Assembly (NCBI RefSeq): GCF_020782875.1
Contig: NZ_JAJGBN010000002.1
Coordinates: 434,001-498,000 of the forward strand
Direction: 5' to 3'
Length of the DNA: 64,000 nucleotides
DNA from: Allomuricauda sp. M10
Lineage (GTDB): Bacteria; Bacteroidota; Bacteroidia; Flavobacteriales; Flavobacteriaceae
Shown: piece after piece, positions 12,071 through 17,247 of the stretch
Layout: each line of letters opens with the position of its first letter
Numbering within the stretch: the first letter of the stretch is position 1
Notes under the pieces: model-generated
What the model was told of the DNA's origin: nothing
Databases searched by the model: none
The model's input: the letters and a program-made list of their open reading frames with translations, nothing else
Position numbers and translations under genes: made by a program

Positions 12071-12850
12071 CTAGTTCATGATAATTTTGAATTGGTTCCT
12101 TAATCCATTATAGGCCTCGAGGTCTGCTTTTAGGGATCCCACCGCTAAATCTGCCTTTACGCGGATGGGAATCTTGTTCAGATCGTTGGACACCCAAAGG
12201 GTCAAACTTTCCTTTTCCTTAAAAACACGGCCCGACTGAACCAACGGTCTAAATTTAAGACATTCCACTTTGCCAAACTTGGTCTTTAAGATTTCTTTTC
12301 CCAAATATTTCAACTGGAACTTGAACATACCGTCGTCATCAAAAAGCATATCCAAATCAATGGATTGGCCTTCCACAAATTCATCATGTTTGTAATTGCT
12401 CCTTAAAAAATAGGAAGCCGAAATAAGGTCCTGTACTCCGTTGTGGATCTGAAAATCTTGCTGGGTACCATTTTTATGATCTTTGAGCACGGCATTGCGG
12501 GTATCGTAATCAAAATTGATTTCCATATCCTTGGTATAGCCTCCTTCGTCTATTTTGCGGACAAACTTGTAGGGCCTTCCATTTCTGCGACCAAAATAGC
12601 TCTCGTAAGTGTCGTCCACTTTAAAAAAAATGCTGGCAAAACCCGTAGTCTTGCCCGTGCCCACCACGTGGTAAACCGGAACACTATCCAAGGTCTCGGA
12701 AGTAAGGTGCATGGTAGCATAGCTGGCATTTAAGATTCCATAATGGATCCTGAACTTGAGCCATTCCCCATTCTTGAATGCCGGTGTGGAATTTTGCCCC
12801 AAAAGGGGAATCACCGAAAGCACAAACAATATGGACAGTAGTTTTTTCAT
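12071..12850 (-). CDS. DUF3108 domain-containing secreted protein
   Basis: A 259-residue periplasmic protein. The signal peptide ends near PLLGQNS. The rest matches DUF3108: GEWLKFRIHYGILNASYATM, the TGFASIFFKVDDTYESYF block, and the C-terminal LWVSNDLNKIPIRVKADLAVGS. Function is unknown; members are predicted beta-rich envelope proteins. The ATG at 12850 is preferred over an in-frame TTG two codons upstream. It is the first gene of the DUF3108-kynA-M23-pgi run; the gap to kynA is 15 bp. Confidence 0.85.
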   Translation of the reverse strand: MKKLLSILFVLSVIPLLGQNSTPAFKNGEWLKFRIHYGILNASYATMHLTSETLDSVPVYHVVGTGKTTGFASIFFKVDDTYESYFGRRNGRPYKFVRKIDEGGYTKDMEINFDYDTRNAVLKDHKNGTQQDFQIHNGVQDLISASYFLRSNYKHDEFVEGQSIDLDMLFDDDGMFKFQLKYLGKEILKTKFGKVECLKFRPLVQSGRVFKEKESLTLWVSNDLNKIPIRVKADLAVGSLKADLEAYNGLRNQFKIIMN

Positions 12851-12940
12851 AGTCAATTTTATGCGTATAAAATTAGCAAAAACGATGTTGGGGCCATCTG
12901 GTTTACATATACTTAAACAAATCTTATTCCAAAATAGTAT

Positions 12941-12974
12941 AAATAAAAAAAGCCCAGTCTTAAAACTGGGCTTT
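12941..12974 (-). terminator. terminator ending the patatin transcript or a small RNA
   Basis: Hairpin AAAGCCCAGT / ACTGGGCTTT with a 6-nt loop. Read on the minus strand it is followed by TTTTTTTATTTAT. It lies 213 bp after the patatin stop codon. Confidence 0.75.
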
Positions 12975-13048
12975 TCCTAAATAACCAACCAAACTTTAAA
13001 TTATGAAAAACCAATACTTAAAGTTATAAGGGAACCACCCCTTATCTG
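12941..13048 (-). ncRNA. candidate small RNA with two hairpins and an anti-initiation-region linker
   Basis: This occupies most of the 330-bp gene-free interval 12857-13186. On the minus strand it reads: 5' hairpin ATAAGGG/CCCTTAT (13045-13026), an unstructured linker, then a U-tailed terminator hairpin. The linker is the complement of CTAAATAACCAACCAAA followed by CTTTAAATTATGAAAAACC, which looks like a flavobacterial 5' leader plus start codon. The plus strand itself has only an 8-codon ORF (13003-13029) and no downstream gene. A TAnnTTTG box lies just upstream on the minus strand. It could instead be only the 3' UTR of the patatin gene. Confidence 0.4.
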
Positions 13049-13051
13049 AGA

Positions 13052-13059
13052 CAAATATA
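13052..13059 (-). promoter_or_regulatory. candidate -7 box for the small RNA
   Basis: The minus strand reads TATATTTG, an exact TAnnTTTG match, 4 bases before the candidate RNA start. The -33 box is poor: no TTG at 19-21 bp. Confidence 0.35.
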
Positions 13060-13186
13060 CGCCAGCACTTTGTAGGAAATTCAGTTTTTAACGGACTTTA
13101 ACTTAACCCCCTAGAAATTGATGCTTTTTAAATACTTTTTTGGCAAATTATTAAGAAATCCGAGGGATTTGATACATCCTCCATAA

Positions 13187-15451
13187 TCAAAACCAGAACC
13201 CTACACTAAAGAAAATACTGTCATTTTTTATCTCAGGCGACCAAGAATAGTAAATCTGTATCGGGCCGATAAATGATTCAAATCCGTACCCTACCCCATA
13301 ACCCGAATAACTGGGTTCCGCAAACCAATCACCAGTTCGGAAGAGGTCATCGGCCACATTGGCGAAATTGGTGGTAAACATCAGGTGGTGTTTGGGTGCC
13401 AACCGATAATCCATACGGCCATATGCTTTGACAAAACTGTTCCCTGGAATGCTGAGAAAATCATATCCGAAGAAGGGTACAAAATTGTTCACAAAGTCAT
13501 TACCAAACCCCCCCAGTACAAAATCAAAAGAGGTCACATCCGACGTCCCCAACTTTACTCCTCCTTCGGCCTCTAAATTAAAACTCAAATTGTGCAAAAT
13601 GGGTATGGCTGTTCCCAGCCTAGCCTTGGCAATGGAAAACTCCCTAAAGTTTTTGTTGTAATCCGAAGAGAAAAGATAAACATGGAAATCGCTATCGAAC
13701 AAAAGCCCCTTGGTCGGAAAATATTTGTCATCATAGGTGTCCAGTGTTATTTTGGAGAAGGCATTGAAATAATTGGATCTTTCAAAAGTGGTCCTTCCAT
13801 CATCATCGGTCAATGTTGCCTCGGCTTCGGTCCCTTGACCCAATGTTCTGGTACTGTACCGTAAAAATTTATGCTCCGCGCCAATGGTAAAGGCAAATTC
13901 CTCCTGCAGCACCGTTTGGAGATAAATTTGGTTGGTGAGATCGGTCACATCCAAATTGATCCTTCTGATATTGGGATCGTTGGGGACGTTGAAATTGCCC
14001 TCGATCAATGAAAAATCGATTTCCGAATTAAAATCCGTGAACTTGGAATTGATCCCAAAGCTCCAGTAATACCCTTTATCCAGATAGTATTGCATGTTGT
14101 ATCGGATATGATCGCCCAAAATAAAATCGAAAGAGGCCACATCGTCCTTCATCAAAAAATTCTTCTTGGTCAAGTTGAACAGGGCCGCACTCTTATAAAG
14201 GTCATCGTAATGGGCAGATACCTTGATGAACATTTTATTGGGGTTTTCCTTGATCTTCAAAATAAGGTCGGTTCCCAATCCATTGGAAACCAAATCATAC
14301 CGAATAGCCTTGAAGTTTCCGGTGGCGGAAAGGTTATTGATCCCTTGTTTCAGGTCTTCAAATGCAATTTTTTCAGCAAGGTTGAACCTCAATTTACCTT
14401 TAATATATCCCCTGGTATAGCGATCATTACCTTCTATGAGCATTCGATTGATCGTTAAACTATCCATGACCGGAATCTGCTTTTTAGGCTTGGGGACATA
14501 GTTTTGGCTCGCTGCAATCTTTTCCAATTCACCTAACTTGGTTCTGGCCGCTTTTTCTCCACTCTCTACAATGGACTTGCCGCGATTAAAATCGATAACC
14601 GAAAACTCATCTATGTCAGGCCGAATGTAGACATCGGTCTGGGCCGACTTTTTCTTCATGTCGTTCACCGTACGATAATTGTTGATCTGCAACAAAATCT
14701 CCGTGGCCGAGGACAGGGATTCCCTTGTGGATAGATCGTGTTGCACATCGACCCCGATGACAATATCGGCCCCCATGGCCCTTACTTGATCTATCGGGTA
14801 ATTGTTGACCACCCCGCCATCGATCAATACATTCCCATCAATTTCCGAAGGCTCAAAAAGGGATGGAAATGTGCCACTCGCCACAATGGCCTCGGGCAAA
14901 TAGCCATGGTCCAACAATACCTGTTCGCCTGTCTCCACATTGGTGGCCACACATAAAAAAGGAATGGGCAATTTGGCAAAGTCCTGAACATCCTTTACGT
15001 GGAAAAGCAATTGCACCAACATATTGTAGATGTTCTGCCCTCCTGAGATGGCCTGGGGAAAACTCACTTTAAAATCGGTAAAGGGCAAGGTAAGGGCATA
15101 ACGTTCAGAATCTTCCTTTTCATAAAAATTCTTGGCACTCCTGGGCACATGATCCTGAATGAGGTTGGTAAAGTTGGTACTCCTAAATATGGAATCCAGC
15201 TCTTTTGCCGAGTAACCAGAAGCATATAACGCCCCTACAATGGCTCCCATGCTGGTGCCACCAATGTAATCCACTTTGATCCCGGCCTCTTCGATCACCT
15301 TCAATGCACCAATATGTGCCAATCCTTTTGCCCCACCACCACTAAGTACCAATCCCACTTTTGGTGGGCGTTCCTGGGTTGTGGACTGGGCCATTCCAAA
15401 TACTCCGACAATAGAGCATATGATCGTAAAAATGGTTTTCCTAATGCACAT
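13187..15451 (-). CDS. patatin-like phospholipase with C-terminal outer-membrane barrel
   Basis: A 754-residue protein with a signal peptide (ending near GMAQS) and an N-terminal patatin domain. Its oxyanion loop is GGGAKG (38-43), the Ser67 nucleophile is in GTSMG, and the Asp211 dyad partner is in DGG. A POTRA-like segment follows (LTINRMLIEGNDRYTRGYIKGKL, about residues 330-400). The last ~350 residues form a BamA/TamA-like barrel ending in Phe. Inferred role: an outer-membrane-anchored lipase presenting or secreting the patatin domain. ATG at 15451 is chosen; a GTG at 15457 overlaps the uvrC stop. Probably cotranscribed with uvrC. Confidence 0.9.
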   Translation of the reverse strand: MCIRKTIFTIICSIVGVFGMAQSTTQERPPKVGLVLSGGGAKGLAHIGALKVIEEAGIKVDYIGGTSMGAIVGALYASGYSAKELDSIFRSTNFTNLIQDHVPRSAKNFYEKEDSERYALTLPFTDFKVSFPQAISGGQNIYNMLVQLLFHVKDVQDFAKLPIPFLCVATNVETGEQVLLDHGYLPEAIVASGTFPSLFEPSEIDGNVLIDGGVVNNYPIDQVRAMGADIVIGVDVQHDLSTRESLSSATEILLQINNYRTVNDMKKKSAQTDVYIRPDIDEFSVIDFNRGKSIVESGEKAARTKLGELEKIAASQNYVPKPKKQIPVMDSLTINRMLIEGNDRYTRGYIKGKLRFNLAEKIAFEDLKQGINNLSATGNFKAIRYDLVSNGLGTDLILKIKENPNKMFIKVSAHYDDLYKSAALFNLTKKNFLMKDDVASFDFILGDHIRYNMQYYLDKGYYWSFGINSKFTDFNSEIDFSLIEGNFNVPNDPNIRRINLDVTDLTNQIYLQTVLQEEFAFTIGAEHKFLRYSTRTLGQGTEAEATLTDDDGRTTFERSNYFNAFSKITLDTYDDKYFPTKGLLFDSDFHVYLFSSDYNKNFREFSIAKARLGTAIPILHNLSFNLEAEGGVKLGTSDVTSFDFVLGGFGNDFVNNFVPFFGYDFLSIPGNSFVKAYGRMDYRLAPKHHLMFTTNFANVADDLFRTGDWFAEPSYSGYGVGYGFESFIGPIQIYYSWSPEIKNDSIFFSVGFWF

Positions 15452-15456
15452 AGTCA

Positions 15457-17247
15457 CTAATGAAATGATTTATAGATTTTCTTCGCTTTGGCCATACCCA
15501 CAGATTCTGCGAGGCTTTCCAACGAAGCTTCCTTGATTCGTTTTACGGATTTAAAGTTCTTCAACAATTGCTCCGCGGTTTTTTCCCCAACGCCTTCAAT
15601 CCCCTCCAATTCGGAATTTATGGCTCCCTTGCTCCGTTTGTTCCTATGATGGGTGATCCCAAAACGGTGGGCTTCGTTCCTTAACTGTTGAATGATCTTT
15701 AAGGTTTCCGATCTTTTATCCAGATAGAGGGGAACGGGATCTTCCGGGAAATAGATTTCTTCCAATCTTTTGGCAATTCCGATAATGGCAATTTTACCCC
15801 TTAACCCCAATAGTTCCAAACTTTTCAATGCAGAGGATAATTGTCCCTTTCCCCCATCGATCACAATCAGTTTCGGCAGGGATTCATCTTCTGCCAACAG
15901 TCTTTTGTATCTTCTATGGACCACTTCCTCCATGCTGGCAAAATCATCTGGTCCTTCTACGGTTTTTATGTTGAAATGCCTATAATCCTTTTTGGAGGGT
16001 TTGCCATCCTTGAAGACCACGCAGGCCGAAACAGGATTGCTCCCCTGTATGTTGGAGTTGTCAAAACATTCAATATGTATGGGTTCCACCGATAGTCGAA
16101 GGTCCGCTTTCATTTGCGACATGATTCGCTTGGTGTGGCGATCGGGATCGGTAATCTTGATCTGTTTCAATTTGTCCTGCCGATAGAACCTTGCATTTCT
16201 TTCGGAGAGTTCCAAAATTTTATGCTTATCACCCAATTTGGGCAGGGTCACCTTCACATTATCCTCCACGGTTACGGGCATCTGCAAATAAATTTCCTTG
16301 GATTTGGAATGGAATCGTTGCCTGATTTCCGTGATGGCCAACTGCAACAGGTCCTCATCCGTTTCTTCCAATTTCTTTTTGATCTCCAACGTGTGCGATC
16401 GTACTATGGAACCGTGGGAAAGTTGCAAGAAGTTGACATAGGCATGGGTCTCGTCCGAAATGATAGTGAACACATCCACATTGTTGATCTTGGGGTTTAC
16501 CACGGTTGACTTGGCCTGGTAATTTTCCAAAATATCGATCTTATCCTTTACGCGTTGTGCCTTTTCAAACTCCATTTTATCGGCAAGCTCTTTCATCTGT
16601 TGTTTGAAAGATTGCAGCGAATCCTTCAGGTTTCCTTTGATGATTTGCCGGATATCCTCAATCTGGGCATGGTATTCCTGCTCGGATTGAAAACCTTCGC
16701 ACGGCCCCAAGCAATTCCCCAGATGATATTCCAAACATACCTTGTATTTGCCTGCATCAATTTTTTCTTCGGAAAGATCGTAATTGCAGGTACGGAGGGG
16801 ATAAAGGCTTTTAACGAGTTCCAAAAGCGTCCTGACCGTTTTCATACTCGTATAGGGGCCAAAATATTCCGATCCGTCCTTGATCAACTTTCGGGTAGGG
16901 AAAACTCTCGGGAACCTTTCTCTTTTAATGCAGATCCACGGATAGGACTTGTCATCCTTCAACATTACGTTATACCGAGGCTGCAGTTTTTTGATCAGAT
17001 TGTTTTCCAACAGCAGGGCGTCCGACTCGGTAGGTACCACAATATGGTTGATGGTCTGGATTTTTTTGACCAAGACCCTTGTTTTACCATACTCCTGGGT
17101 TTTGTTGAAATAGGATGAAACTCGCTTTTTTAGGTTTTTGGCCTTGCCTACATATAAGATCTTACCATCCTTGTCATAAAACTGGTAAACCCCAGGGTTA
17201 TCCGGAAGGGCACTAAGCTGTACAGGAATGGATGTAGGGTGGGACAT
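15457..17247 (-). CDS. uvrC: excinuclease ABC subunit C
   Basis: A 596-residue UvrC, the dual-incision nuclease of nucleotide excision repair. Domains in order: GIY-YIG (GVYQFYDKDGKILYVGKAKNL, residues ~18-40), a Cys-containing linker, the UVR UvrB-binding motif (~200-240), the RNase H-like C-terminal nuclease (HIECFDNSNIQGSNPVSACVVF, later VIDGGKGQL), and two HhH motifs (LEGIEGVGEKTAEQLL). Length and order are standard. The patatin gene follows directly, with only a few bases between stop and start. Confidence 0.98.
   Translation of the reverse strand: MSHPTSIPVQLSALPDNPGVYQFYDKDGKILYVGKAKNLKKRVSSYFNKTQEYGKTRVLVKKIQTINHIVVPTESDALLLENNLIKKLQPRYNVMLKDDKSYPWICIKRERFPRVFPTRKLIKDGSEYFGPYTSMKTVRTLLELVKSLYPLRTCNYDLSEEKIDAGKYKVCLEYHLGNCLGPCEGFQSEQEYHAQIEDIRQIIKGNLKDSLQSFKQQMKELADKMEFEKAQRVKDKIDILENYQAKSTVVNPKINNVDVFTIISDETHAYVNFLQLSHGSIVRSHTLEIKKKLEETDEDLLQLAITEIRQRFHSKSKEIYLQMPVTVEDNVKVTLPKLGDKHKILELSERNARFYRQDKLKQIKITDPDRHTKRIMSQMKADLRLSVEPIHIECFDNSNIQGSNPVSACVVFKDGKPSKKDYRHFNIKTVEGPDDFASMEEVVHRRYKRLLAEDESLPKLIVIDGGKGQLSSALKSLELLGLRGKIAIIGIAKRLEEIYFPEDPVPLYLDKRSETLKIIQQLRNEAHRFGITHHRNKRSKGAINSELEGIEGVGEKTAEQLLKNFKSVKRIKEASLESLAESVGMAKAKKIYKSFH

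Follow-up and report, generated by a model that had tools for sequence, protein, structure and literature searches.

The minus strand of the gap 12941-13059 in a 64,000-nucleotide stretch of the Allomuricauda sp. M10 genome (the window) is, as read from its sequence, a stand-alone small RNA (sRNA) gene, and this gene is old and real. The best explanation of its function, to which we assign a probability of about two in three, is that it encodes a free-standing sRNA that acts in trans and, by base-pairing, represses translation of the SusC/RagA class of TonB-dependent importers and probably that of certain other exported proteins. What was computed here is the gene with its structure and conservation, an upstream element, and the complementarity of the RNA to SusC starts. 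A preliminary description of the gap had proposed a trans-acting sRNA able to mask several translation starts, and this proposal is supported by the promoter box, the hairpins, the terminator, the extra copies and the SusC complementarity.

Organization and structure of the sRNA gene

The features of the gene are collected in Table 1. Its RNA is predicted to have its 5' end near the AUAAGGGG hairpin, and we infer transcription as drawn there. The preliminary description had named a TAnnTTTG box, a 5' hairpin formed by ATAAGGG and CCCTTAT, a single-stranded linker and a terminator hairpin with seven Us. The box is present as TATATTTG, a putative Bacteroidota-type -7 box of the TAnnTTTG consensus, and both hairpins were found, each with a covarying stem. 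The linker survives in part: about 12991-12980 is unpaired in the predicted fold of the window copy, and the remainder of what had been called single-stranded forms hairpin 2.

Table 1. Coordinates of the sRNA gene, its signals and its neighbors in the window
Feature	Position	Strand	Basis or remark
sRNA gene, predicted transcript of ~100-105 nt	12945..13046	minus	fold, conservation, covariation; ends predicted
Conserved upstream element GTTAAAGTCCGTTAAAA (GTTAAA-N4-GTTAAA)	13086..13102	minus	column conservation and motif count in upstream regions
Putative Bacteroidota-type -7 box TATATTTG (TAnnTTTG)	13052..13059	minus	kept in the same or similar form in other genera; neighboring bases vary
Hairpin 1 AUAAGGGGUGGUUCCCUUAU (ATAAGGG..CCCTTAT)	13026..13045	minus	GUGGU at 13038-13034 constant, stem changes
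Hairpin 2 (AACUUUAAGU..AUUUAAAGUU)	12992..13025	minus	apical UUUUUCAU is the complement of AUGAAAA at start codons
Linker UGGUUGGUUAUU, predicted single-stranded	about 12980..12991	minus	complement of UAACYAAC of SusC leaders
Intrinsic terminator hairpin with U7	12944..12979	minus	stem covaries
DUF3108 gene, downstream of the sRNA	12071..12856	minus	Pfam PF11306, E 9.5e-59
Patatin/Omp85 gene, other flank of the sRNA gene	13187-15457		neighbor of the gap

The 106-nt stretch folds at -37.9 kcal/mol, compared with -20.0 kcal/mol (sd 3.1) for 200 dinucleotide shuffles, none of which was as low (z -5.8). The apical part of hairpin 2 in the window copy, AUUGGUUUUUCAUA, is predicted to be open except for an inner three-pair helix (UGG/UCA). 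The stem therefore separates two accessible sites, the loop and the linker, where the preliminary description had seen one. Two-sided changes were found at 12 of the 14 consensus pairs of a 62-sequence alignment, nine of ten in the terminator and three of four in hairpin 1, and some copies (for example L088, L089 and L091) have replaced the hairpin 1 stem by another stem and retained GUGGU. When nine copies were folded individually, including three from the large genus g152 with a different second stem, they mostly formed three hairpins, hairpin 2 carrying UUUCAU or UUUUCAU at its top or close to it; in L091 and L200 these bases were partly paired. Fold and covariation together amount to the conserved structure of a trans-acting base-pairing sRNA, which is accompanied, by sequence, by a promoter and an intrinsic terminator.

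Three smaller observations concern the same region. The bases GUGGU at 13038-13034 of the minus strand stay constant as the stem around them is replaced, and we found no role for them. By eye, GGGGUGGUUCC looks partly complementary to the 3' end of 16S rRNA. Between the sRNA and the DUF3108 gene, TTGGAATAAGATTTGT (12932-12917, minus strand) has the sigma54-promoter-like form GG-N10-G[CT].

Distribution and conservation

The sRNA was found in all 60 genomes drawn from the genus Flagellimonas/Allomuricauda at E <= 1.6e-39 in a 146-base DNA search, mainly over 13045-12945, and the same search of 39 genomes of other families gave a best match of only 1.4e-5. In a draw of 397 genomes from the family, with the two best candidates per genome scored, about 90 had a match at E <= 1e-8 (counted by eye). 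The RNA occurs in many other genera of the family. A covariance search had been suggested as a check across Flavobacteriaceae; applied to 395 genomes of the order, the model added 36 genomes of g152, tentatively labeled Flavobacterium, at E <= 1.7e-5 (a hand count given without a fraction, the misses in g152 having been listed in part), and the best listed match outside the family was 1.2e-5. A pattern scan of named genomes returned at least 119 stretches, and Arenibacter, Maribacter, Zobellia, Cellulophaga, Robiginitalea, Kordia, Galbibacter, Sinomicrobium and Capnocytophaga are represented among the 80 listed. For eleven genomes of the family in which the first covariance search listed no match, the best E obtained with a second model was 6.3e-4. 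The RNA is therefore common in the family and not universal, or is too diverged in these genomes to be recognized.

Of 59 loci selected by BLAST, 27 lie outside the genus. Over all 59, identity is 95-100% at each position between 13024 and 12968, and the flanks and the terminator loop are variable. The statement of core invariance is drawn from these loci because two larger sets, of 124 distinct copies and of 159 copies, were chosen by core match; many of their members come from close relatives.

Predicted pairing with SusC/RagA translation starts

Candidate targets were sought in contig C12, which makes up 22% of the window's own genome and holds 694 genes by a simple rule. Start windows were scored against a 39-nt seed with a pairing energy model that ignores target accessibility, and some of the shuffle counts given below are small (44, 60, 80). 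Over C12 starts as a whole the sRNA seed was no better than shuffled seeds, 20 of 60 being as low; three SusC/RagA importers stood among the first 14 genes with the most negative z-scores. We then defined a SusC set as all 23 genes of this genome above the TIGR04056 cut-off, 18 of which lie outside C12 and are therefore independent of the source of the idea. The 23 starts had a mean pairing energy of -18.6 kcal/mol, versus -14.8 (sd 0.87) for dinucleotide-shuffled seeds, and none of 1000 shuffles was as low; for the 18 outside C12 the values were -18.1 versus -14.8 (sd 0.94) kcal/mol, and a single shuffle in 1000 was as low. For the SusC set, complementarity to mRNAs encoded elsewhere thus exceeds chance; for starts in general it does not.

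The predicted duplex spans the start codon in 19 of the 23 SusC genes (hand count). Typically, the linker pairs with bases resembling UAACYAAC that lie about 15-40 nt before the start codon, the loop pairs with AUGAAAA, and both contribute to the pairing in this genome. UAACYAA occurs in 6 of the 23 SusC leaders versus 18 of the 689 non-SusC leaders of C12. The strongest leaders are L339, L352, L348, L350 and L334, and some others, such as L337 and L346, have no match. The preliminary description had held that the linker complements a leader together with its start codon; the plus-strand CTAAATAACCAACCAAACTTTAAATTATGAAAAACC is indeed present and SusC starts do match, but the matches are shorter than had been supposed and fall into two parts.

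Literal searches were less informative. Strings resembling TAACCAACCAAA, which had been expected near start codons, were not enriched over reversed patterns either in the window's own genome or in the 60 genomes of the genus. The 28-nt antisense string occurs in its own genome, at up to three mismatches, solely in the sRNA itself; AACCAACC-N(0-25)-ATGAA has 16 places there, one of them the sRNA, versus 13 for the reversed pattern; and the 19-nt anti-linker string, at up to two mismatches, has 102 places in the 60 genomes, of which 60 are the sRNA and the 42 others compare with 43 for the reverse. A 27-nt pattern tolerant of G-U pairs gave 16 places, again including the sRNA, versus 5 for its control, places being counted irrespective of starts. 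The best single target in C12 is an amidohydrolase-like gene, by our own reading of its product (L304, C12:411001-412428). Over its start and leader, two blocks of 12 nt are perfectly complementary to the loop and linker of the sRNA (-33.3 kcal/mol; none of 44 shuffles did as well). The match is absent from the 29 relatives examined, all of other genera and 57-73% identical, and a species- or genus-level target is a possibility. Antisense-only BLAST matches in other genomes, taken as the top-scored per genome, included starts of genes that we read as transporter-like.

An alternative account of the SusC match is that the RNA acts in trans mainly on other targets, and that SusC leaders match it through a general A/C-rich leader style. 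We regard this as unlikely. The 689 non-SusC starts of C12 do not behave as the SusC starts do (z -0.3, 22 of 60 shuffles as low), nor do the 264 non-SusC genes of C12 with a signal-peptide-like start (z -0.85, 14 of 60), and dinucleotide-shuffled seeds hardly ever equal the sRNA on SusC starts; in the window's own genome linker and loop both contribute. On the other hand, the 83 non-SusC C12 genes that begin ATGAAAA lean the same way as SusC (z -1.8, 5 of 60), as the alternative would have it, and several results from other genomes also speak in its favor.

For these genomes the non-SusC starts of C12 served as a stand-in control. The SusC leaders fetched, out of all SusC matches, numbered 20 of 33 for G567 (g152), 19 of 21 for G121 (Capnocytophaga-like), 10 of 10 for G313, 8 of 8 for G130, 10 of 10 for G277 (Kordia-like), 10 of 11 for G318, 20 of 36 for G242, 13 of 20 for G087 and 7 of 12 for G063 (the last two tentatively labeled Chryseobacterium-like); the names given to G121 and G277 are inferred from near-identical sRNA copies in named genomes. 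The rule for choosing a start succeeded in 19 of 20 fetched leaders for G567, 18 of 20 for G242, 12 of 13 for G087 and all of those of the other genomes. In several G567 genes translation probably begins at an ATG further upstream, and the longer stretch used for cross-genome scoring includes it.

SusC pairing agrees in four of the five other sRNA-bearing genomes. The own-type seed gave z -4.3 in G567, -4.4 in G277, -3.0 in G130 and -2.7 in G313, with 0 of 80 shuffles as low in each, and the genomes' own seeds gave -4.9 in G567 and -4.1 in G277. The fifth, G121, is weak despite its three copies of the sRNA (z -0.9, 15 of 80, with the own-type seed; -1.7, 5 of 80, with its own), a point in favor of main targets other than SusC. 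The Chryseobacterium-like genomes G087 and G063 were negative with the own-type seed (z +0.7 and -0.3); with the Kordia-type seed of G277 the SusC starts of G087 do match (z -3.3, 0 of 80) and those of G063 reach z -2.1 (1 of 80), so they are not a clean negative control, and the same alternative gains by this. It gains also from G318 and G242, whose SusC leaders match (z -3.6 and -2.7) though neither model detects an sRNA above noise. The leader style thus does not need the RNA and extends beyond the genomes in which the RNA is recognizable: either a diverged RNA is present in G318 and G242, or the leader style is the older of the two and the RNA makes use of it. UAACYAA itself was counted in 10 of 19 SusC leaders of G567, 4 of 19 of G121, 3 of 8 of G130, 2 of 10 of G313, 2 of 10 of G277, 3 of 10 of G318, 1 of 18 of G242, 1 of 12 of G087 and 0 of 7 of G063.

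Gene neighborhood and upstream element

The position of the gene raises a second alternative, that the RNA works in cis, as leader or attenuator of the DUF3108 gene that follows it, and a homologous same-strand gene does follow in 33 of 37 loci. Copies of the sRNA in other surroundings oppose this reading. The window's genome has one full copy, and some others have two or three, arranged in tandem (L090, L091 and L092) or unlinked (L093 and L094, which with a third make up the three copies of G121); these extra copies carry their own -7 box, upstream element and terminator, as does the copy at L095, where the next gene lies on the opposite strand. Moreover, 130 of 166 copies have a site of the form GG-N10-G[CT], presumably a sigma54-type promoter, 3' of the terminator and ahead of the next gene (a loose pattern, counted without a chance control). 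We therefore rejected the cis-leader reading, which we consider very improbable. Extra copies with their own promoter box, covarying hairpins and terminator fit a free-standing gene. On the upstream side of the 37 loci, one family is found in 21, which by our own reading of the translations is 4-hydroxyphenylpyruvate-dioxygenase-like, and the patatin/Omp85 family in 11.

The least probable account is a protein-binding, sponge-like RNA in which a protein reads GUGGU and the linker and so holds both constant, an idea that suits the persistence of GUGGU through replacement of its stem and a conserved run longer than a pairing seed requires, but that leaves many of the constant bases matching SusC starts as well; base-pairing and protein-binding roles could coexist in one RNA.

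The upstream element lies outside the gap 12941-13059 covered by the preliminary description. GTTAAAGTCCGTTAAAA is a direct repeat with a period of 10 and covers roughly -57 to -41 relative to the predicted transcript start. Over the 59 loci its GTTAAA columns are 98-100% conserved, three spacer columns 64-95% and the last A 90%. Of 159 upstream regions, 158 contain GTTAAA at least once, 125 contain it twice or more and 110 show a spacing of 10; among mononucleotide-shuffled upstream regions, 8% have at least one GTTAAA and 0.4% two or more. The element is probably the binding site of an activator; direct repeats spaced by roughly one helix turn at this position would fit an activator of the OmpR/CpxR type. 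The repeat occurs, with at most one mismatch, at one other place in the window's own genome (L263 1501-1517, 5' of an outer-membrane-protein-like gene), and in that genome it is not commoner than a reversed control (2 versus 3 places).

A palindrome, ATGCTTGCAT or a near form of it, lies between GTTAAA and the -7 box at L088, L089, L091, L092, L095, L147, L165, L184 and L545, and perhaps marks a second regulator in some lineages; TGCNNGCA occurs in 15 of the 159 upstream regions.

Discussion

If the sRNA represses SusC translation by base-pairing, its linker UUGGUUGGUUA would bind UAACYAAC in the SusC leader, the UUUUCAU of the hairpin 2 apical part would bind AUGAAAA at the start codon, and the seed bases GGUUGGUUA would pair with the matching bases of the susC leader. 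With the start region covered by both sites, initiation would be blocked. The sRNA would probably be switched on by a regulator reading the GTTAAA element. We infer pairing in the cell, the direction of its effect on SusC, and an inducing signal. Bacteroidota mostly initiate translation without Shine-Dalgarno pairing, and the bases just upstream of the AUG matter, so that the proposed pairing site would be an effective one.

Three described systems invite comparison. The FopS sRNAs of Bacteroides thetaiotaomicron pair close to the start codons of SusC-like transporters and so repress their translation, as was shown for a SusC mRNA, and their in-silico targets are enriched in SusC; they are ~65-70 nt long, form a group of 14 paralogues (12-15 copies) and consist of an unstructured 5' stretch with an R1' seed followed by a terminator (PMC11697453). 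The flavobacterial RNA belongs to the same phylum and, here by computation only, likewise targets SusC translation initiation regions; by the available part of the FopS account it differs in its length of ~100 nt, its three hairpins, a 5' end formed by a hairpin, a seed split between loop and linker, and one full copy in the window's genome rather than 12-15 (PMC11697453). Most likely, then, our comparison suggests, it works like FopS and yet is not a FopS member by the features tested, structure and copy number.

GibS, also from B. thetaiotaomicron, is an intergenic sRNA that pairs across start codons and uses two seed regions for one target (PMC7366714). The flavobacterial RNA is predicted to share these three traits, whereas GibS, as far as the available text describes it, has other targets and a long single-stranded 5' part and is described within Bacteroides (PMC7366714). 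Closer by taxonomy are Rfp18 and its siblings Rfp11, 13 and 15 of Flavobacterium psychrophilum, which are conserved outside the species and have at least three stem-loops (PMC9723704). Rfp18 is thus like our RNA, by description only, in its family, its strong multi-stem-loop structure and its conservation across species, and differs from it in its predicted targets, which are metalloproteases reached through the third stem-loop rather than SusC (PMC9723704). Rfp18 or a sibling could be the g152 copy of the sRNA (L377-L393). If Rfp18 is that copy, a 2021 study had already detected the RNA and connected it with metalloproteases (PMC9723704), and its family-wide range and its link to SusC would, on the literature covered here, still be new. 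A search of the open-access literature yielded no paper that we recognized as describing the flavobacterial sRNA.

Beyond the pairing with SusC, we tentatively propose, at somewhat less than even odds, that the sRNA serves much of the Flavobacteriaceae as a core regulator: mostly single-copy, near-frozen in sequence and induced by the GTTAAA regulator, it would lower many SusC importers through its split seed and would have arisen independently of FopS. The signal to that regulator is perhaps one from the envelope or from nutrients. If this proposal is true, two distant families of Bacteroidota would have arrived at one solution by way of different RNAs. A large part of algal polysaccharide is broken down by marine flavobacteria, which rely on SusC/SusD importers for this. 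Our open-access literature search found no account of post-transcriptional tuning of the flavobacterial SusC importers, of which these bacteria have dozens; with one conserved RNA set against many SusC starts, such tuning becomes testable with a single deletion strain of a species amenable to genetics.

An Rfam 15 scan of window positions 12800-13250 and of six loci found no family that reaches its gathering threshold on the sRNA, and weak hits to rnk_pseudo, MicC, BTnc231 and rteR were rejected as far below threshold. The scan (cmscan) lists no FopS match, a result that is informative only if the Rfam copy used includes a FopS model. Near other copies of the sRNA, Rfam hits comprised a Flavo-1 RNA and two DUF805b motifs (L390 31-111; L091 594-628 and 1286-1318). 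Possible reduced relatives of the sRNA lie at L085 ~1490-1575 and L078 ~1500-1570; they end in a terminator, contain GGTTGGTTAGTTAG or GGTTAGTTAGTTAA and lack the full set of hairpins.
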